A stretch of DNA of 64,000 bases from an uncultured Bacteroidales bacterium (lineage in GTDB: Bacteria; Bacteroidota; Bacteroidia; Bacteroidales; WCHB1-69), in the NCBI GenBank assembly GCA_905235135.1, contig CAJOKR010000025.1, forward strand, positions 26,954 to 90,953. Reading direction: 5' to 3'. Position 1 is the stretch's first letter; each line of letters starts with the position of its first letter. Of the stretch, positions 3,529 to 63,626 are shown one piece after another. The notes beneath the pieces are model-generated. The model worked only from the letters and a program-made list of their open reading frames with translations. It did not search any database and had not been told where the DNA came from. Made by a program: the position numbers and the translations under genes.

Positions 3529-3534
3529 TAGTAT

Positions 3535-3719
3535 TTGGTTTAAGGTTTAAGGTTTAAGGTTTAAGGTTTAAGGTTTAAGGTTTAGGGTTTAAGATTTACA
3601 GACTTGTGACGTAAGACTAAAGACTTTGGGGTCTTACGTTAAGTCTTGATGATTTGTCAAGTGTTTCTTTTTATAATTTCAGGTTTCAAGTCTTACGTCT
3701 TGCGTCTCACGTCTTAAGT
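3535..3719. repeat. 7-bp arrays (TTTAAGG, then degenerate AAGTCTT)
   Basis: The spacer between two minus-strand genes starts with about eight copies of TTTAAGG and continues with degenerate AAGTCTT/ACGTCTT heptads up to the TAG of the next gene. No other gene is seen here. Confidence 0.85.
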
Positions 3720-11481: not shown

Positions 11482-11763
11482 GGGGGCAGGGTTAGAGGGT
11501 TAATCATCTATCGTTCGCGCGCTTGTTCGTCATTAACCTCACCCCCTTGCCCCTGTCCAAATGGCGAGGGGTGGTACCGACCTCCCCTAACAGTTTCTCA
11601 CATTGCAGTCGTTGGACTCCTCCCCCAGTTGTGGGAGGCCGGGAGGTGGTAATCAAGCCCACACACAAATGATGGATAGATACCAAAATCGCCCCTTTAC
11701 GCTATTCCTATATATGATAATATATATCTTATCACCTTCCGCCACCCCGGCACCCTGCCAAGC

Positions 11764-11872
11764 ACTTCCCATACCTTTCCCATACCTTTCCCATAGCTTT
11801 CCCATACCTTTCCCATAGCTTTCCCATACCTTTCCCATACCTTTCCCATAGCTTTCCCATAGCTTTGCCATA
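11764..11872. repeat. 11-bp tandem array, TTTCCCATACC/TTTCCCATAGC
   Basis: About ten copies with the last two bases alternating CC or GC. It differs from the other arrays by its 11-bp period. Confidence 0.9.
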
Positions 11873-12167
11873 CTAAGGAGTATGGCATCACTATGGCATC
11901 ACTATGGCAACTGTATGCCATCCCTAACCCTCTAACCATGTAACCCCTAACCATGTAACCAACCCCACCCCTTTTCGTATAAGAAGATATACGGGAAATG
12001 GGGGAGGAACGGCGGAATTGACTGCCCTTCGCGACTGTTGATACCCTGTTGAAAAGTTTTAATAACTGAGACGATGCAGATAAGAAGCTGTATATAAGTA
12101 AGTTAGGGAAAATTTCAAAAAAATCGAAAAAAAACATTGCGAAAAGACAAACAATGGAAAAAAAATG

Positions 12168-22911: not shown

Positions 22912-24600
22912 ATGATCGAGCCGTTCGTTAAGTTGTTGTTCAGGGGGACGTTGGAGGGGTTGAGTCCCGTGTCAGCCTACATGGTTTCCATTGTTTCTGC
23001 GGTGGTGCCGTTGGATAGTGCACGGGAATCCATTGCGGTGCTGATTGTGGCGGCTGCGGTGCTCTATTTCCTCCGCAATCTGGCAGCCTACGGATCGCAG
23101 TGGGTGATGGCGCACGTACGTAGCGACTTCCTCTACCAGTTGCGCAACCGCCTTTACGAGAAGATGATTTCGTTGCCGTTGGGCTATTTCACCATGGAGA
23201 GTCGTGGCGATACGGTGACTCGTGCGGTGAATGACACCCAGGAGGTGGAATATACCGTGCTGACCTCCATCCACAAGTTCCTGACGGATCCGATTGCGCT
23301 GGTCTGCTACTTGACCTTCCTCTTCTACATCGACTACCAGCTCTCCCTTTGGGCTGTACTGCTGATGCCCATCTCGTTCTTGATTATCGGGTTCTTGTCA
23401 CATCTGCTCAAACGTTCCTCCAAGACCTACCGCCAACGGCTTGGGGTGTTGCTCTCACATGTGGAGGAGACTCTTTCCGGTCTGCGGGTAATTTATGGCT
23501 TTAACGCACAGGAACGAGCCTATCGGAAGTTCGAGAAACTGAACAACGAGTTCCATGAGAATCAGAAAAAGGTTTATCGGCAGAGCTATCTCGCTAATCC
23601 TTTGAGTGAGTTCCTCGGGGTGGTCTCGGTGATGGTGGTATTGGTGATTGGAGGTTCCTTAGTGCTGTCAGAACGTTCCACGCTTTCGGCTGAGCTCTTC
23701 ATCACCTATATTGCGCTGTTCACCCAGATCATCACCCCGGTGTCGAATATCTCTTCCGCCTTTGCTGATTACAAACGAGGCGAGGCTGCCCTGGACCGCA
23801 TACAAGATTTTCTCGCCATTGGGGATCAGGTCGAGGATCGTCCGGATGCGATGCCTGTGCCGGGATTCCATCAGGAAATTGCGTTTCAGGATGTCTCGTT
23901 TGCATACGCGGACACGGACGTTCTGCACAATATCAATCTGACAATACCCAAAGGCAAGACGGTGGCGTTAGTAGGTTCTTCGGGTGCAGGCAAGACCACG
24001 CTCGCGGATCTACTAATGCGTTTTTACGATGTCACCAGTGGGCAATTGCTGTTGGATAACATCCCCGTGGACCATTACCGTGTTTCAGACTATCGCGGGT
24101 TGTTCGCGCTCGTTTCCCAGGATGTGATGCTCTTCCACGATACAATCTACCGGAACATCACGCTGGGTTGCGATGCCACGATGGAAGAGGTGATGGAGGC
24201 TGCCAAGGCTGCCAACATCTACGACTTCGTAATGTCCCTCCCCGATGGTTTCGACCACGTGGTCGGCGATCGAGGGGTAGCATTGTCGGGCGGACAGCGC
24301 CAGCGGGTGAGCATCGCCCGTGCCGTGTTGCGTAAAGCACCGATTCTGGTTTTGGACGAGGCCACTTCCGCGATGGACACCGAATCGGAACGGCTGGTGC
24401 AGCAATCGGTGGATGCTTTGTCGAAACAGCGCACGGTGGTGGTCATCGCCCACCGTCTATCCACCATCCGCCACGCCGACTGCATCTGCGTGTTGGACGC
24501 TGGCCAGATTGCGGAGGTGGGAACACATGAGGAACTGATGGCGATGAAGGGCGCGTATTACCAATTTGTAGAGACGCAAAATTTTGCATCTCTACCATAA
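22912..24600 (+). CDS. MsbA-like ABC exporter (transmembrane plus ATPase)
   Basis: 562 residues as called; homologues are about 600, and the missing part is the upstream fragment at 22817. Transmembrane helices span about 1-280. The ATPase domain has Walker A GSSGAGKTTL, signature LSGGQRQR, Walker B ILVLDEATSAMD and the switch IAHRLSTI. The family exports lipid A, lipids or peptides as a homodimer in the inner membrane. The last eleven residues (FVETQNFASLP) are encoded mostly by a 28-bp palindrome that sits directly before the stop codon, so the native C-terminus has been replaced. The ATG at 22912 is internal to the original protein. Confidence 0.85.
   Translation: MIEPFVKLLFRGTLEGLSPVSAYMVSIVSAVVPLDSARESIAVLIVAAAVLYFLRNLAAYGSQWVMAHVRSDFLYQLRNRLYEKMISLPLGYFTMESRGDTVTRAVNDTQEVEYTVLTSIHKFLTDPIALVCYLTFLFYIDYQLSLWAVLLMPISFLIIGFLSHLLKRSSKTYRQRLGVLLSHVEETLSGLRVIYGFNAQERAYRKFEKLNNEFHENQKKVYRQSYLANPLSEFLGVVSVMVVLVIGGSLVLSERSTLSAELFITYIALFTQIITPVSNISSAFADYKRGEAALDRIQDFLAIGDQVEDRPDAMPVPGFHQEIAFQDVSFAYADTDVLHNINLTIPKGKTVALVGSSGAGKTTLADLLMRFYDVTSGQLLLDNIPVDHYRVSDYRGLFALVSQDVMLFHDTIYRNITLGCDATMEEVMEAAKAANIYDFVMSLPDGFDHVVGDRGVALSGGQRQRVSIARAVLRKAPILVLDEATSAMDTESERLVQQSVDALSKQRTVVVIAHRLSTIRHADCICVLDAGQIAEVGTHEELMAMKGAYYQFVETQNFASLP
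24568..24595. repeat. 28-bp family palindrome, copy P2 (translated)
   Basis: Arms GTAGAGACG and ATCTCTAC around core CAAAATTTTG. It is read in frame at the end of the ABC exporter gene and is followed at once by CATAA, giving the stop. Confidence 0.9.
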
Positions 24601-26648: not shown

Positions 26649-27021
26649 ATGAAAACTTATTCATTTGAAAACCTTGAAGTTTGAAAAAAATCCAGAGAAC
26701 TTGTACTATGTGTTTACCGCATTCAATCCTCTTTTCCTTCATTTGAAAAATATGGTTTGGGTAATCAGTTGAGGAGAGCTGTTGTTTCCGTGTTATCAAA
26801 TTTTGTTGAAGGAAATGCCCGCTATTCCATAAAAGAACAAATACATTTCATTGAGATTGCCCTCGGATCGTTGATGGAAGTCTATTGTCAGTTGACATTA
26901 GCTTCATGATTTAAACTACATCACTGAAGAGCAATTAAAACTCTGCAAAGAGAAAATAGGAGAAGTTTATAGGTTACTAAAAGGAATGCGGTACCAAAAG
27001 TTCAAACAGCTCCCTACCTAA
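26649..27021 (+). pseudogene. Four-helix-bundle protein of the 23S rRNA intervening-sequence (S23) family, degenerate
   Basis: Not in the ORF track. From ATG the reading is MKTYSFENLEV, then TGA, then KKSRELVLCVYRIQSSFPSFEKYGLGNQLRRAVVSV-type sequence, which is the family's signature (usually ...LEVWKKSRELV; here the Trp codon TGG has become TGA). A second lesion, a shift near 26907, is followed by DLNYITEEQLKLCKEKIGEVYRLLKG in another frame, ending at TAA 27021. The family is found inside 23S rRNA genes or free in the genome; its role is unknown. The gene is dead by two independent lesions. Confidence 0.8.
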
Positions 27022-27068
27022 TAGTCTTAAGTCTCAAGTCTCAAGTCTTAAGTCTCAAGTCTTAAGTC
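27022..27068. repeat. 7-bp array AAGTCTC/AAGTCTT
   Basis: About six heptads between the pseudogene's stop codon and the stop codon of the convergent kinase-like gene. Confidence 0.85.
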
Positions 27069-27701
27069 CTACTGCGGGTATTTCTTCAGCACATTCTCCG
27101 CCAGGAACTGCGCCACCTGGTCGGTAGTGAATCCTGAGACGTTGATGACAATGTCGTAATTGCGGGCATCGTAGCGGGATGTTTCGGCGAAAGCTTTCGT
27201 GTAGTTTTCGCGGGCCTTGTCGGTACGTTCCATAATCTCGCGGGCGCCTTTTTCGTCCACGCCCTGCTTCTCCATCAGACGTTTCACGCGGCATTCGGGG
27301 TTGGCGATGATGAGCAGGCGCATGGCGTTGGGGTCGTCCTTGAAAATATGGAAGCCGGTGCGCCCCACGATGATGCAGGATTCTTGTGCGGCGAGTTCTT
27401 TGAGGATTTTCGCTTCCTCATAGTAAATCTGTCTTGAATCGACCTCGAAGGATTCGAAGGCGATGGCGGCCGTGGTGCCGAACTGCTTGTAGAAGCGGCA
27501 GAAATCGGCCCACCAGCCCTGTTTCGTGGCTTTGACCTTTTCGAGTTCCTCTTCTGAAAGGTTGTATTTTTCGCGGATGGAGGCGAGGATTTCCTTGCCA
27601 TAGACTTTCACGCCGAGCAGCTCGCCCAGCTTTTCGGCGATTTCCTTACCGCCGGAGCCCGCCTCGCGGTTGATGGTGATGACGAATTTTTGATCTGCCA
27701 T
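27069..27701 (-). CDS. Cytidylate-kinase-like family protein
   Basis: 210 residues. P-loop-like N-terminus ITINREAGSGGKEIAEKLGELLG, then CIIVGRTGFHIFKDDPNAMRLLI and RVKRLMEKQGVDEKGAREIMERTDKAR, which form the lid-like region of the Cytidylate_kin2 family. Likely a cytosolic nucleoside monophosphate kinase-fold protein; its actual substrate is not established, and the main CMP kinase Cmk is a separate family. The stop codon borders a heptad array, and a TACTTTTG box lies upstream. Confidence 0.85.
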   Translation of the reverse strand: MADQKFVITINREAGSGGKEIAEKLGELLGVKVYGKEILASIREKYNLSEEELEKVKATKQGWWADFCRFYKQFGTTAAIAFESFEVDSRQIYYEEAKILKELAAQESCIIVGRTGFHIFKDDPNAMRLLIIANPECRVKRLMEKQGVDEKGAREIMERTDKARENYTKAFAETSRYDARNYDIVINVSGFTTDQVAQFLAENVLKKYPQ

Positions 27702-30775: not shown

Positions 30776-30803
30776 GTAGAGACGCACGGCCGTGCGTCTC
30801 TAC
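30776..30803. repeat. 28-bp family palindrome, copy P6
   Basis: Perfect palindrome: arms GTAGAGACG/CGTCTCTAC around core CACGGCCGTG. Seven bp from the 3' end of tRNA-Ser. Confidence 0.92.
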
Positions 30804-38296: not shown

Positions 38297-38312
38297 GTTC
38301 AATCAATAAAAC

Positions 38313-38344
38313 AAAAAAAGGCCGACGAACGTCGGCCTTTTTTT
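38313..38344. terminator. Bidirectional terminator
   Basis: Stem AAAGGCCGAC/GTCGGCCTTT with a GAAC loop and flanking A/T runs, shared by two convergent T9SS cargo genes. Confidence 0.93.
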
Positions 38345-38347
38345 GTT

Positions 38348-40039
38348 TTATTGATGTACAATCTTTCGGAGGATTTCGTGGCCGTTAGAGGTTTTGATGT
38401 GGAGGATGTAGGTGCCGGAGGGAAGGGAGCGGAAATCCAAATTGTTGATGTTGTCCCGTTGTAGGGGCGAATAATTATTCGCCCCTACGGCACGGCCTTG
38501 TATGTCATAAAGGGAGATGTTGACGATTCCCAAATCGCCGTTAATCTCCACCGTCACGAAATCCTTCGCGGGGTTTGGGTAAATAGAGATGGCATTTTCA
38601 TAGTCGTCAATTCCAACGTGCTGGGACAGTTGTACGTTTTGGATGACCTTCTGGCCGTCCGCCACATTGGCGACAATCGTTTTCGGGAGGTAGCCCTCGG
38701 CGGAATAGGTGACTGCATACTGACCACCCTTGATGGGACGGTGGTAGTCGCCGTGCGGCAGGGAGGTCTCCACGTAGGAATGGTCGAGGTCGTGGTCGGC
38801 GATATAGATAATCGCTTCAAGCGGCTCGCCCGTCAGCGAATCGGTGACTGTGCCGTGGATGCCATGGTTCGCCTCCCCGATAAAGTTCAGCAAAGCACGG
38901 TACGCAAAGCTCCAATAATACGGTAAGTAGTTGGTCGATAAAACTTTACTGTCGCAAACCTCAATGGTGACGTGGCGCGTGCCGAGATACCAGTTGTGGT
39001 AGTCCTGCATGGAGCCGGTAATGACATACCAGTCGCCACCCTCGGTGACACCGTTATCTTCCTCCGTCATGTAGGTGCTGTGGTAAGACTGGCAGGTGTC
39101 GGCATACCGGTGTCCTACATACTCCCACCAGGCAGCGTCGGCATGACTGTGTTGCCACGACATCCAAAAGTCCCACGGATAGTTGAAAACTTCCGCACCG
39201 CCGTGTAGGTTGGCCGCCAAAGTGAGGTTGTGTGCCTGCATGAACTGCATCATTGCCTGCACCTCGGGTTCGTCCTCGTTTTCTTTCGCGGGGTTCTGTC
39301 CTGCCCATGGGAACGAGCGATTCAGATCAATCCCGTGAAGGTTTTCCCGAATCGAAATTGGCGAGGAGTTGATTTGGTCGTCGGAGGTGTAATAGGTACC
39401 GTCGGGGTTGTGCAGCGGACAAATCCAAATGTCCACATTGTTGACTAACTCGGTGACGTATGCGTCTGTGTTGTAGTTGGTTAGCAGATAGTCGATAAGC
39501 CTCAGCATCATGTAGTAGCCCACCACCTCGTCGCCGTGGATGGTGGAGGAGTAGAAGATGGATGGCTTTCCCTCGCTACCGCTGAGGTCGTTGCTGATGT
39601 GGGCGCATAGGATTTTGCGTCCTCCCGGTGTCGCGGCCAAGATGGTGTCAATCTCGCAAAGCTGCGGGTAGCGCGTCCGGAAGGTGTCCATCATGGCGGT
39701 ATAGGTGCTGTAGGTCGGATAGCGCCTCCAGGAGGAGGTCATCTGCTCGTAGCTATTGGCCATCTGCACGTTGGCGCGGGTCTGCGGTACAGTCGTATAG
39801 GGGATGCCCTTTGCTAAGAAGTTGTCGAAATCCCTGTACGACAGACAGATGCGGGTGTTGAAGGTGTTGTCTGTGTTACGCTGCACACGGTCCACGGAGA
39901 ACTCCCGCGACAGCGACTGCAGCGTGGCAGCGTCTAAGACGGTCTCCACGTAGGTGCTGGGATAGGTCAGCGTGGTGTTTTGCGCTGACGCGGAGATGGT
40001 GAGGATGATGGCGATGATTAGGGTAATAGGTTTTTTCAT
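38348..40039 (-). CDS. Zinc carboxypeptidase (M14) with T9SS sorting domain
   Basis: 563 residues from ATG 40039; the ORF-track extension of 39 codons reads through a tandem repeat and is rejected. Signal peptide MKKPITLIIAIILTISASA, Gln at +1. M14 zinc motif STIHGDEVVGYYM, NPDGTYY, substrate-site RSFPWAGQNP, and NLHGGAEVFNYPWD; catalytic Glu in HVTIEVCDSK. A carboxypeptidase-regulatory-like sandwich (about 415-490) and a type A sorting domain follow (ISIYPNPAKDFVTV). Inside the sorting domain the residues VGANNYSPLQ are encoded by a 28-bp palindrome, in frame. Cleaves C-terminal residues of peptides outside the cell. Confidence 0.9.
   Translation of the reverse strand: MKKPITLIIAIILTISASAQNTTLTYPSTYVETVLDAATLQSLSREFSVDRVQRNTDNTFNTRICLSYRDFDNFLAKGIPYTTVPQTRANVQMANSYEQMTSSWRRYPTYSTYTAMMDTFRTRYPQLCEIDTILAATPGGRKILCAHISNDLSGSEGKPSIFYSSTIHGDEVVGYYMMLRLIDYLLTNYNTDAYVTELVNNVDIWICPLHNPDGTYYTSDDQINSSPISIRENLHGIDLNRSFPWAGQNPAKENEDEPEVQAMMQFMQAHNLTLAANLHGGAEVFNYPWDFWMSWQHSHADAAWWEYVGHRYADTCQSYHSTYMTEEDNGVTEGGDWYVITGSMQDYHNWYLGTRHVTIEVCDSKVLSTNYLPYYWSFAYRALLNFIGEANHGIHGTVTDSLTGEPLEAIIYIADHDLDHSYVETSLPHGDYHRPIKGGQYAVTYSAEGYLPKTIVANVADGQKVIQNVQLSQHVGIDDYENAISIYPNPAKDFVTVEINGDLGIVNISLYDIQGRAVGANNYSPLQRDNINNLDFRSLPSGTYILHIKTSNGHEILRKIVHQ
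38461..38488. repeat. 28-bp family palindrome, copy Q1 (translated in the M14 sorting domain)
   Basis: Arms GTAGGGGCG/CGCCCCTAC around core AATAATTATT. Read on the minus strand it codes VGANNYSPLQ in frame, between the DIQGR strand and the LDFRSLPSGTY strand of the sorting domain. Confidence 0.93.
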
Positions 40040-40054
40040 AGGTCTGTTTCTATT

Positions 40055-40163
40055 TTTCTGTAAACGCCCCACACTGCGGGTCTTTCTGTAAACGCCCCAC
40101 ACTGCGGGTCTTTCTGTAAACGCCCCACACTGCGGGTCTTTCTGTAAACGCCCCACACTGCGG
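40055..40163. repeat. 28-bp tandem repeat, 3.9 copies
   Basis: Unit TTTCTGTAAACG + CCCCACACTGCGGGTC, three full copies and a partial fourth. The CCCCACACTGCGG part matches one arm of the adjacent three-hairpin element E2, so the array looks like amplification of its end. It lies in the leader of the M14 gene. Confidence 0.92.
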
Positions 40164-42028: not shown

Positions 42029-42250
42029 GGGTTTAAGGTTTAAGGTTTAAGGTTTAAGGTTTAAGGTTTAAGGTTTAAGGTTTAAGGTTTAAGGTTTAAG
42101 GTTTAAGGTTTAAGGTTTAAGGTTTAGGTTTAAGGTTTAAGGTTTAAGGTTTAAGGTTTAAGGTTTAAGGTTTAAGGTTTAAGGTTTAAGGTTTAAGGTT
42201 TATGGTTTGAGGTTTCAAGTCTCAAGTCTTAAGTCTCAAGTCTCAAGTCT
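42029..42250. repeat. Long 7-bp array: about 26 TTTAAGG units, then AAGTCTY
   Basis: The largest heptad array in the window. It starts at the uvrC TTG codon, keeps the 7-bp phase with one shortened unit (about 42121-42127), and changes to AAGTCTC/AAGTCTT units from about 42214 until the stop of the next gene. Confidence 0.95.
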
Positions 42251-42256
42251 TAAGTC

Positions 42257-43789
42257 TCAATTATCTATTAATCTCGGGACGGGCATTACGAACAGGTCTT
42301 CGGGTTTGCGGGGACGGTAGGCATCTAACCAGCGGAATCCTTGGAGTTTGCGTTCGTTTTCCTTTATCTCTTCGTCGGGGTGAACCTGCCCGGAGGGGGC
42401 ATCGAAGTAGCGAATCTGCTGTATGTGGTTGCTGTCGAGGTAGATACGCATTTCACTCGTGATGGAGGTGTTGATGCCGATGAGCGAGCTGTCTTCCTCC
42501 TGGACGTAATAGACACACTCTGCATTTCCCACAATATCAACACGTTGGAGATTTCGATTTTCCAAATGTCCGATGATGTTCAGCCCTTTGATCTGGTTGA
42601 ATTCCGTGTCTTCGAAAAGCCCGCCGACGATGAACCCCGACCTGCAAAGTTCGATCGTGGAGTGTATCGAATCGAGCATTGTAAATCGGACAGTGTCGCC
42701 GGTAAGTTGGTAGTTATCGGACCAGAACACAGGATTGTAATACATTACCAGCATGGAGTCTTCTACGTTGTAAACCATTGAGTCACAAGCGCCTTGAAGA
42801 TCTTTATGTTGGAATTTGGTGTGGAAGAAAGCGCGGACTAATGTGGGGTTGGAGGCGGTGTCGAAATCGACGAACAGCGTGTCGCAATGGAGAAAAAGAG
42901 AGTCTTGGTTGTCATCAATATAGACGAGCATATTGCTGTCGGTGGCAATAGAAGTGCCGCCTTTCTCATGATGTTCGAGGTAATTTCCCGAGACGATGAG
43001 GTGGTTGGCCGTGTCCACGAAACGGGCGTTGCGCCAGGCACGGCCGAATTTCAGCTGCTGGTCGTAATAGACGCTGTCGGCGAAAAGTTGCTGTTTCTCG
43101 CCGAGAAGCTGCACGTTTCCGTAAAGGATGGAGATGTCGGATTCGGTTTTGTAGAGCCCGCGGTCGGTGAAGATGGTGTTTTCCTCGTTGACGAGGTGCG
43201 TGGGCGAGATGAAGTAGGCGATTTTGCTGCTGGCGTTGTAACGGAGGGAGTCGCAGTCCATAGTGTAGCTGGTGCTGCGCAGGAGCACCGAATCGTGGAG
43301 GTAGGCATCGTCGGTGTTGGTGTAGTATTTTCCGATGACGCTGGTCAGGGTGTCCGCATCGTTGAAGATTTGGCCGCCGGTGACGTAGTAGCCGCAGTCG
43401 ATGTTGAGGTCGTAGAAGAGGCTATCGGCGAGCAGGTACGACTTGCCGTTTTCGAGACGCACCTTGCCGGCGATGACAGCCTGCCGGATGTTGCCGTCGT
43501 AGGTGGCGCGGTAGCCGTTCAGGTGGATGGAGTCGCTAATGACGAAGCGGACGGGGTTGCCGTAAGCGATGATGTAGTTGTCCGCCTCATAAAGGTAGGC
43601 ACTGTCGCAGTAGCCCACCACGTTGTCCTGTTTGAATTTGACATTGCCGATGAGCCGCTGAGCACCGGGGTAAGCGTCCTCGTCGTAGTAGCCCATGTCC
43701 GCCCGATAGAGAATCTTGCGGTTGCTCTGTCCGTGTATCGCGCTGATACACAGAATGCTGAGTAACAGTATGGCGGACAGTCGCTTCAT
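42257..43789 (-). CDS. OstA/LptA-like envelope protein
   Basis: 510 residues. Signal peptide with Gln at +1 (ISAIHG/QSNR). The N-terminal half is an OstA-type beta-jellyroll with repeated strands (GNVKFKQDNVVGYCDSAYLYEADNYIIAYGNPVRF; GYRATYDGNIRQAVIAGKVRLENGKSYLLADSLFYD), as in LptA and the N-terminal domain of LptD. Probably part of periplasmic LPS transport. It overlaps in transcription with the YwqK-type lipoprotein gene 3 bp upstream. Confidence 0.85.
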   Translation of the reverse strand: MKRLSAILLLSILCISAIHGQSNRKILYRADMGYYDEDAYPGAQRLIGNVKFKQDNVVGYCDSAYLYEADNYIIAYGNPVRFVISDSIHLNGYRATYDGNIRQAVIAGKVRLENGKSYLLADSLFYDLNIDCGYYVTGGQIFNDADTLTSVIGKYYTNTDDAYLHDSVLLRSTSYTMDCDSLRYNASSKIAYFISPTHLVNEENTIFTDRGLYKTESDISILYGNVQLLGEKQQLFADSVYYDQQLKFGRAWRNARFVDTANHLIVSGNYLEHHEKGGTSIATDSNMLVYIDDNQDSLFLHCDTLFVDFDTASNPTLVRAFFHTKFQHKDLQGACDSMVYNVEDSMLVMYYNPVFWSDNYQLTGDTVRFTMLDSIHSTIELCRSGFIVGGLFEDTEFNQIKGLNIIGHLENRNLQRVDIVGNAECVYYVQEEDSSLIGINTSITSEMRIYLDSNHIQQIRYFDAPSGQVHPDEEIKENERKLQGFRWLDAYRPRKPEDLFVMPVPRLIDN

Positions 43790-44492: not shown

Positions 44493-44536
44493 CAATTTTT
44501 AGGGAATGGGGAGATGGGTCGTATTCGTAAAATATG

Positions 44537-44544
44537 TACTTTTG
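44537..44544 (+). promoter_or_regulatory. -7 box for the T9SS esterase
   Basis: TACTTTTG, 16 bp before ATG 44560. It lies inside the longer ORF-track reading, so the longer start is ruled out. Confidence 0.6.
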
Positions 44545-44559
44545 CGGCAAATATATTCT

Positions 44560-45564
44560 ATGAAAAAAGTATTGACAATCAGCATCTTATTGATGATATG
44601 TGGGATGATGACCCTCACCGCCCAAATCCAGCACTTCACCTGGCAGGGTACGGAGCGTGAATATCTCATCCGTGTGCCCTCGCAGCATACGAGTCCTCTG
44701 CCTGTGCTCTTCTTCCTGCACGGGTTAGGCGACAATATCACGAACTATGACCAGACGTTCAACTTCGGGCAGATAGCCGAGGAGTTCGGGTGGGCGATTG
44801 TGGCGCCGCAAGCTCTCAACCAGGGCATAGGCGCCATGTGGAACGCCGGACTGATGCCCAGCTCCATCGATGACGCCGGCTTCCTGATGGCCCTCCTCGA
44901 CTCGCTGACCATCCAGTATCAGCTCGATCCCGACAGCGTCTTCTTCTCGGGCTTTTCGATGGGCGGCTTCATGACGCATCGCATGGCCATCATGCACGGC
45001 GATCGTATTACCGCGTGCGTTCCTTTCAGCGGACTGATCACCACTGCGGATGCCGCACAAACGCCCGTCGCGCCCGTCCGGATGCTCCACGTCCACGGCA
45101 CGAATGACAACGTGGTGGGTTACAACGGATATTCCACCGCGTTTGGCATGAATCTCGGCCTTGGGGTGGATGCTATCATGGACTACTGGCAGAATGCGAA
45201 CAGCTGCACTGGTGAGCCCGCCATTGACACGCTCCCCGACCTCAAGAATGACGGGCTGCGTTTTATCCGCTACACCTACAACTGCGGCACCGACCTGCAG
45301 CTGCTGAAAGTGGTTGGCGGCACCCATAACTGGTATGATGTCGCGCACAATGATGTTGGCTACAAGGAGATTCTCTACGAGTTCTGCTCCGGTCACAGCC
45401 TTCCGTCAGGCGTGCCCGCACGTGAGACGGGGTATCTGCAGGTCTGGCCGAACCCCACAAACGGCGTCCTCAACATCCAGATGCCCAATTCCGATTCACC
45501 GGCTAAAGACATTCAGGTTTTCGATGTGTATGGAAAATTGGTGGATCGTGGTAGGGGCGAATGA
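44560..45564 (+). CDS. T9SS esterase (polyhydroxybutyrate depolymerase/LpqC-like), sorting domain interrupted
   Basis: 334 residues as it stands. Signal peptide ends MTLTA with Gln at +1. Alpha/beta hydrolase motifs: LFFLHGLGDNITNY (oxyanion region), FSGFSMGGFMTHRMA (nucleophile Ser), HVHGTNDNVVGYNG (Asp) and GGTHNWYD (His). A type A sorting domain begins LQVWPNPTNGVLNIQ but is cut short after GKLVDRGRGE by a stop codon formed inside a 28-bp palindrome. Deleting exactly those 28 bp restores a normal sorting-domain end (ETTKIDMSRFPDGVYFVQ, to the stop at 45673). The protein as encoded probably cannot be exported or anchored by the T9SS. Substrate: an ester, perhaps a plant-wall or polyester type. 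Confidence 0.85.
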   Translation: MKKVLTISILLMICGMMTLTAQIQHFTWQGTEREYLIRVPSQHTSPLPVLFFLHGLGDNITNYDQTFNFGQIAEEFGWAIVAPQALNQGIGAMWNAGLMPSSIDDAGFLMALLDSLTIQYQLDPDSVFFSGFSMGGFMTHRMAIMHGDRITACVPFSGLITTADAAQTPVAPVRMLHVHGTNDNVVGYNGYSTAFGMNLGLGVDAIMDYWQNANSCTGEPAIDTLPDLKNDGLRFIRYTYNCGTDLQLLKVVGGTHNWYDVAHNDVGYKEILYEFCSGHSLPSGVPARETGYLQVWPNPTNGVLNIQMPNSDSPAKDIQVFDVYGKLVDRGRGE

Positions 45565-45578
45565 TTATTCGCCCCTAC
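45551..45578. repeat. 28-bp family palindrome, copy Q2 (inside the esterase gene)
   Basis: Arms GTAGGGGCG/CGCCCCTAC around core AATGATTATT. It splits the esterase's sorting domain and supplies an in-frame TGA. Flanking codons rejoin perfectly on removal. Confidence 0.95.
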
Positions 45579-45673
45579 AGACCACAAAAATCGATATGTC
45601 CCGCTTCCCCGACGGTGTCTATTTCGTGCAGGCAGGCAGCAGTGCGGTGACAAAGGTGGTGGTGTCTCGTTAA
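45579..45673 (+). pseudogene. Detached end of the esterase sorting domain
   Basis: Reads TTKIDMSRFPDGVYFVQAGSSAVTKVVVSR then TAA, the expected final strands of a type A T9SS sorting domain, but out of frame with the esterase because of the palindrome. Confidence 0.85.
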
Positions 45674-56340: not shown

Positions 56341-57372
56341 ATGGTTAACCTTTTTTTACATATTCAAATGATCAACAAGCAATTACAAGCGTTTCACACC
56401 ATAAGTCTTAAGTCTTACGTCTCAAGTCTCAAGTCTAAGGTTTCACGTCTGTTCTTATTCATCACGCTGTTTCTCGCCAGCGCAGGCGCATTTGCGCAAG
56501 AGAAAGAGACCTATCTGTACGCAGAAAAGGACACGAGCAAGCTGTATTTGGATGTGTACGTGCCGAAGATACAGAACGAGCAGCAGTCGTGCCTGATGTT
56601 CGTGTTTGGGGGCGGTTTCATCGGCGGGAAGCGCGACGACAACCAGATACAGCAGGTTTGGCGTCACTTCACCGATAAGGGCTATGTGGTCATCGCCATT
56701 GACTACAGACTTGGGATGCGCGGAAAGACGGAGTTTGCGGCGCTGAAAGCCCTTAAGAACTTCCAGAAATCCATCGACATGGCGGCAGAAGACGTGATTT
56801 CGGCGCTGGACTACATCATCCGGAATCTTCGTCATACGGACAAATACACCATCGACTGCGCCCACATTGTGGTGATGGGCAGCAGTGCGGGGGCCATCGC
56901 GGCGCTGCAGGCCGATTATGCAATGTGCAACGGCTACTTAAACAGCGACAATCTCCCCCAGAGTTTCCGGATTGCCGGGGTGGCTGCCTACGCCGGCGCT
57001 ATCTTCTCCACCCACGGAGTGCCCAAGTACAAGAACCGCGCACCGGCACCCACGCTTTTCTGTCACGGCACCGACGATAAGCTGGTGAACTACAACAAGA
57101 CCCAGTTCGCCAACATCGGGTTCTTCGGGTCAAAATCCCTTGCGAAACAGTTCAAGAAGAAAGGTTACACCTACCAAATTCGCCGTTACACGGGCCTCGG
57201 GCATCAGGTGGCGGCTTTCTACAACGATGAGTTCGACGTCATTGAGGATTTCATCACGAAAATAGCGTTCACCGACAGCGGTGTCCAGCTTGACGAGACC
57301 CGCTACGACCCGCGCATCGAGCCGAAGTGGAACAACTTCAGGGTGCGGGATCTCAAAAAATTCGCGCAGTAA
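56341..57372 (+). CDS. Secreted alpha/beta hydrolase (carboxylesterase-like)
   Basis: 343 residues. The signal peptide (LFLFITLFLASAGAFA, Gln at +1) follows an unusually long N-terminal region in which LKSYVSSLKSKVS is encoded by an AAGTCTY heptad array. Core motifs: LMFVFGGGFIGGKRDD (oxyanion-type HGGG variant), VVIAIDYRLG, VVMGSSAGAIAALQ (nucleophile Ser), CHGTDDKLVNYNK (Asp) and GLGHQVAAF (His). Probably an esterase of the feruloyl/acetyl type. The true start may be later than 56341, but no downstream Met precedes the signal helix except at about 56368. Confidence 0.82.
   Translation: MVNLFLHIQMINKQLQAFHTISLKSYVSSLKSKVSRLFLFITLFLASAGAFAQEKETYLYAEKDTSKLYLDVYVPKIQNEQQSCLMFVFGGGFIGGKRDDNQIQQVWRHFTDKGYVVIAIDYRLGMRGKTEFAALKALKNFQKSIDMAAEDVISALDYIIRNLRHTDKYTIDCAHIVVMGSSAGAIAALQADYAMCNGYLNSDNLPQSFRIAGVAAYAGAIFSTHGVPKYKNRAPAPTLFCHGTDDKLVNYNKTQFANIGFFGSKSLAKQFKKKGYTYQIRRYTGLGHQVAAFYNDEFDVIEDFITKIAFTDSGVQLDETRYDPRIEPKWNNFRVRDLKKFAQ
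56399..56448. repeat. 7-bp array AAGTCTY inside a coding region
   Basis: About six heptads (AAGTCTT, ACGTCTC, AAGTCTC, AAGTCTA) translated as part of the hydrolase N-terminus. Confidence 0.75.
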
Positions 57373-63488: not shown

Positions 63489-63596
63489 TCACCGCCTCAC
63501 AACCTTCTATTGGTATTCCCGCCCTTCCGCATCCTTCACGCGCAACACATACACGCCCGCGGGAAGGGATTTCACGTCCAGGGTGGCTGTTCCGTC
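63489..63596 (-). pseudogene. Type A sorting-domain remnant with a nonsense codon
   Basis: Reads DGTATLDVKSLPAGVYVLRVKDAEGREYQ, then TAG, then KVVRR and TGA. The usual end is ...EYQQKVVRR, so a CAG to TAG change is likely. The upstream half is cut by the palindrome at 63599. Confidence 0.75.
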
Positions 63597-63598
63597 CT

Positions 63599-63626
63599 GT
63601 AGAGACGTTGCGCGCAACGTCTCTAC
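63599..63626. repeat. 28-bp family palindrome, copy P10 (at a sorting-domain loop)
   Basis: Perfect arms GTAGAGACG/CGTCTCTAC around core TTGCGCGCAA. Read on the minus strand it encodes VETLRATSLQ in frame with the sorting-domain remnant that follows, at the same loop as copies Q1 and Q2. Confidence 0.92.

Follow-up and report, generated by a model that had tools for sequence, protein, structure and literature searches.

GTAG REPs are short, high-copy palindromes that begin with GTAG and lie mainly in intergenic regions or near gene ends, with some inside ORFs (PMC3733652). They often supply the TAG stop codon of neighbouring ORFs (Di Nocera 2013, PMC3733652), and in two Xanthomonas species different REPs are found at about the same site in recB (PMC3733652). 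GTAG repeats have been listed in Proteobacteria, Cyanobacteria, Chloroflexi and PVC, a list from which Bacteroidetes are absent (PMC3733652). The Rickettsia RPEs, as summarized there, are palindromes present in frame in many unrelated ORFs whose proteins probably still work (PMC3733652). In the orthoswitch, described for RAYT loci, related strains differ in the REP class found at a given orthologous position (Nunvar 2013, PMC3686654). On the protein side, the translocon-bound T9SS sorting domain of RemZ adopts two conformers, distinguished by their b4-b5 loop, and the contact surface shows little conservation (PMC10994853).

We analyzed a stretch of 64,000 nucleotides, referred to here as the window, from a Bacteroidales genome of 3.26 Mb (118 contigs, 88% complete). 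A preliminary description had placed three palindromes, at 38461, 45551 and 63599, in one loop of three T9SS sorting domains, and both the coordinates and the profile matches agree with this placement (Table 1). It had also read the downstream half of each domain in the frame starting at the GTA of the palindrome. All three peptides were recovered in that frame, and translation of the M14 gene runs through the palindrome as had been reported, with the reading frame open on both sides. The copies at 38461 and 45551 belong to the GGGG type and that at 63599 to the GAGA type; they are one family and represent different subfamilies.

Table 1. Coordinates of the palindromes and their host features in the window.
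Feature	Position	Strand	Remarks
GGGG-type 28-bp palindrome	38461..38488	-	perfect; in frame in M14 sorting domain; encodes VGANNYSPLQ
M14 zinc carboxypeptidase with carboxypeptidase-regulatory-like domain and C-terminal T9SS type A sorting domain	38348..40156	-	
Por_Secre_tail sorting domain of M14 gene	38357..38584	-	profile match, G000:C25:65310-65537, window offset 26953
GGGG-type palindrome in esterase sorting domain	45551..45578	+	13/14 positions paired; downstream frame reads VGANDYSPLQ
PHA-depolymerase-like esterase ORF, shortened within its sorting domain by a frame change	44506..45564	+	
Second half of esterase sorting domain, out of frame	45578..45661	+	profile match, C25:72531-72614
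GAGA-type palindrome at left edge of orphan sorting-domain 3' half	63599..63626	-	perfect; VETLRATSLQ
Orphan sorting-domain 3' half, profile positions 37-72, one internal TAG near its end	63504..63614	-	profile match, C25:90457-90567
GAGA-type copy ending MsbA-like ABC transporter ORF (22912-24600)	24568..24595	+	last residues VETQNFASLP
Intergenic copy of the element family	30776..30803	.	pattern match

The M14 gene matches Peptidase_M14 (E 1.8e-53) and Por_Secre_tail (E 2.3e-14), and its sorting domain scores above the curated cut-offs of PF18962 (53.9 bits vs 27) and TIGR04183 (45.4 vs 23). From the sequence, the element is likely translated within a working signal, both in this gene and in the other in-frame domains. 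In the esterase, the Pfam and NCBIfam matches cover the first half of a sorting domain and no more; the stop of the ORF falls inside the palindrome, and the remaining half follows in the GTA-read frame. The same databases identify two more sorting-domain proteins in the window, and further copies of the element family lie at 2034, 27759, 28951, 29951, 30953, 34198 and 62074. Other repeats are also present. A 28-bp tandem repeat, TTTCTGTAAACGCCCCACACTGCGGGTC, lies close to the start of the M14 ORF (40055-40163). Between that gene and a convergent 549-aa sorting-domain protein is a 27-bp inverted repeat with T/A runs (38301-38356), likely a bidirectional terminator. An 11-bp tandem repeat, TTCCCATACCT, lies upstream of a 3445-aa ORF (11744-11883), and arrays with periods of 7 and 14 bp (GGTTTAA, AAGTCTT/AAGTCTC) are found between genes at 3530-3600, 27020-27070, 42030-42260 and 56385-56460.

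To describe the family as a whole we surveyed the genome. The consensus is a 28-bp palindrome, GTAGRGRCG-N10-CGYCYCTAC, in which GTAG pairs with CTAC and the pairing is perfect end to end. The pattern GTAGRGRC-N(8-16)-GYCYCTAC has 222 matches while the reversed control pattern has 0. A GGGG arm occurs on at least one strand at 18 places, nearly always with AATAATTATT or AATGATTATT as the core. Common cores between GAGA arms are CAAAATTTTG, TTGCGCGCAA, CAATGCATTG, CACGGCCGTG and CGCCATGGCA. The flanks show a weak YT...AR preference, and a T before and an A after the element are favoured (65%), suggesting a possible unit length of 30 bp, which is divisible by three. The M14 element with its flanks had no match among phage records, and the arm sequences, looked for in a limited set of the literature, returned only unrelated papers.

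Placement was scored for 92 copies, made up of those in the window, every GGGG copy and those on the contigs listed first, using simple hexamer ORF scoring and no gene finder. In this sample 54 copies fall in no scored ORF, 16 inside ORFs, 14 at 3' ends and eight at apparent 5' ends. Read from GTA the element has no stop codon, and the intragenic copies are in this phase, with the exception of one doubtful N-terminal case. Most of the gene-end copies (12 out of 14) take the TAG of the element as stop codon or are read in the phase in which that TAG is the stop. Roughly half of the intragenic copies in the sample sit in one loop of one domain family. In-frame (phase 0) copies were also seen in ORFs other than sorting domains (L024:1450-1528, L031:917-944, L032, L125, L130, L149 and L150 near 2620), and a 790-aa ORF of this kind holds two copies from different subfamilies.

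To determine how often sorting domains carry the element, we searched the genome with PF18962 and read each of the 95 matches, domains or fragments, as DNA. The element fills 15 of these roughly 95. It is in frame in 11 of them, and the other four are the esterase domain and three orphan 3' halves. All 15 are in the GTA-first phase with peptides of the form VETxxxxSLQ or VGANNYSPLQ. In the full-length matches the element starts 93-123 nt into the domain, where b4 ends and the b4-b5 loop follows. No copy was found elsewhere inside the 95 matches, with a few at or just past the stop codon. At C35:22953 and C78:961 the peptide SPHGTSLPE looks like a decayed copy. Five of the filled copies in this genome belong to one near-identical domain family. 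Among filled domains in general, and not only those of this genome, different subfamilies are represented, the PNPF type among them, and the element begins 1, 4, 5, 6 or 7 residues after the G-K/R of the domain, with the start exactly one codon after G-K/R in 19 filled domains. With uniform placement and paralogues counted separately, 1.3 exact copies are expected in the 95 matches, against 13 observed (P of about 1e-9). The expectation for the 36-nt loop windows is 0.23 copies, and six independent events would still give a P of about 2e-7 under uniform placement.

A position-blind check of a second species of the genus, G013, gave a similar picture. The element fills 14 of 97 matches, with offsets of 93-120 and phase 0 throughout, and is found nowhere else inside these 97 sorting-domain matches. 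Rather than being scattered at random through coding sequence, the in-domain copies of both genomes all lie in one loop.

An AlphaFold2 model of the M14 sorting domain, built from a 45-sequence alignment, has seven strands and a mean pLDDT of 88.9, and Foldseek matches it to the translocon-bound sorting domains of RemA, RemZ and NucA (8gl6, 8gl8, 8glk), with a TM of 0.73/0.82 for 8gl6_D. The element peptide corresponds to model residues 41-50, covering the last part of b4 (40-45) together with the b4-b5 loop (46-53), where the confidence of the model is lowest. In the alignment, the V of VET or VGA occupies the conserved hydrophobic site that follows G-K/R-x. Filled domains exceed unfilled ones in length by just a few residues.

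We also examined orthologous sites in related genomes; these and the genome analyzed here are drafts, mostly metagenome assemblies in which repeats may be misassembled. In nine same-genus relatives the M14 orthologues all have the element at the same codon, with four core types: AATAATTATT-like in G000 (this genome), G012 and G009; TTGCGCGCAA in G013; CGATTAATCG in G003; and TTTCxxGAAA-like in G006, G010, G014, G007 and G002. More distant M14 orthologues, at 50-55% identity, are without it. The esterase orthologues follow the same pattern, the same codon being filled in eight relatives, again with several core types. The filled orthologues keep the frame, so the frame change in this genome is either recent or an assembly error. 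Orthologous sites in another genome were available for 33 elements, coding and intergenic. GAGA arms are mostly identical between such sites. Of the 48 pairs in which both members are palindromic, 29 have cores that differ at no fewer than four of the 10 positions, these pairs sharing sites and not being independent. Sites filled with differing cores suggest that they stay occupied while the core is swapped. No empty/filled pairs from which a target might be read were found in close strains; the intergenic comparisons were too diverged or repetitive.

Across 40 scanned relatives, 21 of the 23 other same-genus genomes have the element followed by the downstream G-x-Y codon pattern. By eye, the matched strings are sorting-domain-like in 18 same-genus genomes. 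The 16 genomes from other families of the order gave one pattern match, not sorting-domain-like, and a laxer phylum-wide pattern gave no sorting-domain-like match outside the genus among the strings read by eye. When GTDB genomes were scanned, this arrangement, directly after G-R-x, turned up in rumen and gut Bacteroidales assemblies and also in other Bacteroidota records, with the same loop filled in MS495-7, MS499-65, Prevotellaceae Hs463_bin52 and Bacteroidales Md513_bin82.

The data are best accounted for by tolerance at a permissive loop followed by retention and duplication of paralogues, a reading we consider probable. The element would be a short mobile palindrome that is REP/RPE-like and non-autonomous. 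It measures 28 bp, or often 30 bp if the flanking T and A are counted, and copies of it may have inserted on several occasions into the codons that specify the last part of b4 and the b4-b5 loop in T9SS type A sorting domains. Each insertion would add about ten residues, V-E/G-T/A-x4-S/P-L-Q, keep the domain in frame, and replace a conserved hydrophobic residue of b4 with the inserted valine. Insertions would then have been kept and copied along with paralogous domains, and the palindromic core at occupied sites may later have been exchanged for other subfamilies in different species. Sorting domains differ in the length and sequence of the b4-b5 turn, so insertions there are expected to be tolerated. 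Tolerance with retention and duplication would explain the loop position, the reading frame, and why filled paralogues occur alongside unfilled ones. The permissive loop put forward in the preliminary description is well supported by this variable turn, by filled domains being only slightly longer, and by the existence of intragenic copies outside sorting domains, in the same frame. Given the observed position, frame, copy numbers, and occupancy of orthologous sites with differing cores, we infer that the element is mobile, that tolerance causes the loop bias, and that the filled domains continue to function in export. The density of the element in the loop is above a rough intergenic estimate, for which a coding fraction was assumed; tolerance by itself would not clearly predict this excess.

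That density is consistent with a second reading in which insertion itself causes the bias: the mobilizing enzyme would favour a DNA feature of the b4-b5 hairpin, for example GTAG or GTN-GAN after the G-K/R codons. The 19 filled domains starting exactly one codon after G-K/R also point in this direction. If GTAG were the target, one would expect both the use of the element TAG as stop by end copies and the restriction to phase 0 of GAGA-type intragenic copies, which are open in two frames. However, the starts are spread over five distances from G-K/R and do not define one fixed site, the flanking preference is weak, and donation of a TAG stop by GTAG REPs has already been reported (Di Nocera 2013, PMC3733652). 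We regard a target preference as unlikely. Somewhat less likely again is that an enzyme targets, or time and again re-targets, one export-signal hairpin, swapping cores, which would make the selfish element a recurrent editor and exchange point of the sorting tags of the secretome. No copy of the element closely flanks any of the Y1_Tnp loci covered, which were four in this genome (88% complete) and those retrieved from its relatives. A divergent Y1-type transposase ORF at C20:83064 (L153) has near-identical end peptides, GGAAFLPQNxNNDFRQECR, suggesting these are terminal repeats of another element.

On the domain tree the filled domains group together, with 11 changes compared to 27 in shuffles (7 in this genome; the tree is poorly resolved), and part of the filled-domain count is therefore duplication. 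Taken further, a single domain may have been struck once, with all filled domains descending from it by duplication and domain exchange and the cores changing afterwards. The clustering, the five copies in one near-identical domain family, and the core differences on record at fixed sites fit such a history, but the element is found at five or more offsets from G-K/R, in several subfamilies including PNPF, and in separate lineages. These argue for more than one event, unless the flanks slid, and a single insertion is improbable.

The three orphan 3' halves (63599 in the window, C32:11648 and C68:556) start exactly at the palindrome in unrelated surroundings, suggesting in these three cases that rearrangements used the palindrome as a breakpoint. 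Third-position changes account for 28 of 118 in sorting-domain copies and 93 of 305 in noncoding copies. In 47 changed copies there is no third-position excess and so no sign of selection on the peptide; purifying selection on the encoded peptide was tried as an explanation and set aside. That the palindrome or peptide was co-opted, being kept for helping export, mRNA behaviour or domain exchange, is very improbable: sites do remain occupied through the genus and the orphan halves resemble exchange points, but about 85% of sorting domains do without the element, the changes lack a third-position excess, and the cores vary freely.

With tolerance and retention as the preferred account, these genomes amount to an insertion scan carried out by nature on the T9SS sorting domain, in which many ten-residue inserts mark one tolerated turn, the same turn that shows two conformers in the translocon structure. 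Palindromes persist at orthologous coding sites across the genus while their cores differ, and the little-understood core exchange of REP-like elements thereby becomes testable, with fixed sites and a protein read-out. They also provide an example of selfish DNA becoming part of a protein signal, in a gut bacterium with about 220 copies of the element.

The host domain itself resembles other T9SS type A sorting domains (PF18962, TIGR04183) in its profile matches, its seven strands and its similarity to translocon-bound structures. It differs from the usual domain of this type in that what appears to be a mobile palindrome encodes the last part of b4 and the b4-b5 loop. Like the GTAG REPs, the element falls within the 20-40 bp range (28 bp), has a high copy number (222), and is mostly intergenic or near gene ends (54 of 92 in no scored ORF, 14 at 3' ends). 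GTAG REPs have an unpaired tag at one end (PMC3733652), whereas here the GTAG is paired within a perfect palindrome; and unlike GTAG REPs with a cognate RAYT, no Y1_Tnp locus examined is closely flanked by the element. The GTAG REP paper describes no recurrent single protein loop (PMC3733652), a feature the present element has. Similar to the RPEs as summarized in that paper, the element is in frame within ORFs of likely functional proteins, including the M14 peptidase, other sorting-domain proteins and several ORFs without the domain. RPE sites vary among genes and the elements carry a CGTC tag, while here one loop of one domain family holds about half of the intragenic copies sampled. As in the orthoswitch, the core class changes at orthologous positions. 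Orthoswitch sites flank transposase genes, however, while the present sites are in export-signal codons and intergenic regions with no adjacent transposase. The element thus behaves like a REP or RPE but without the unpaired tag that defines a GTAG REP.
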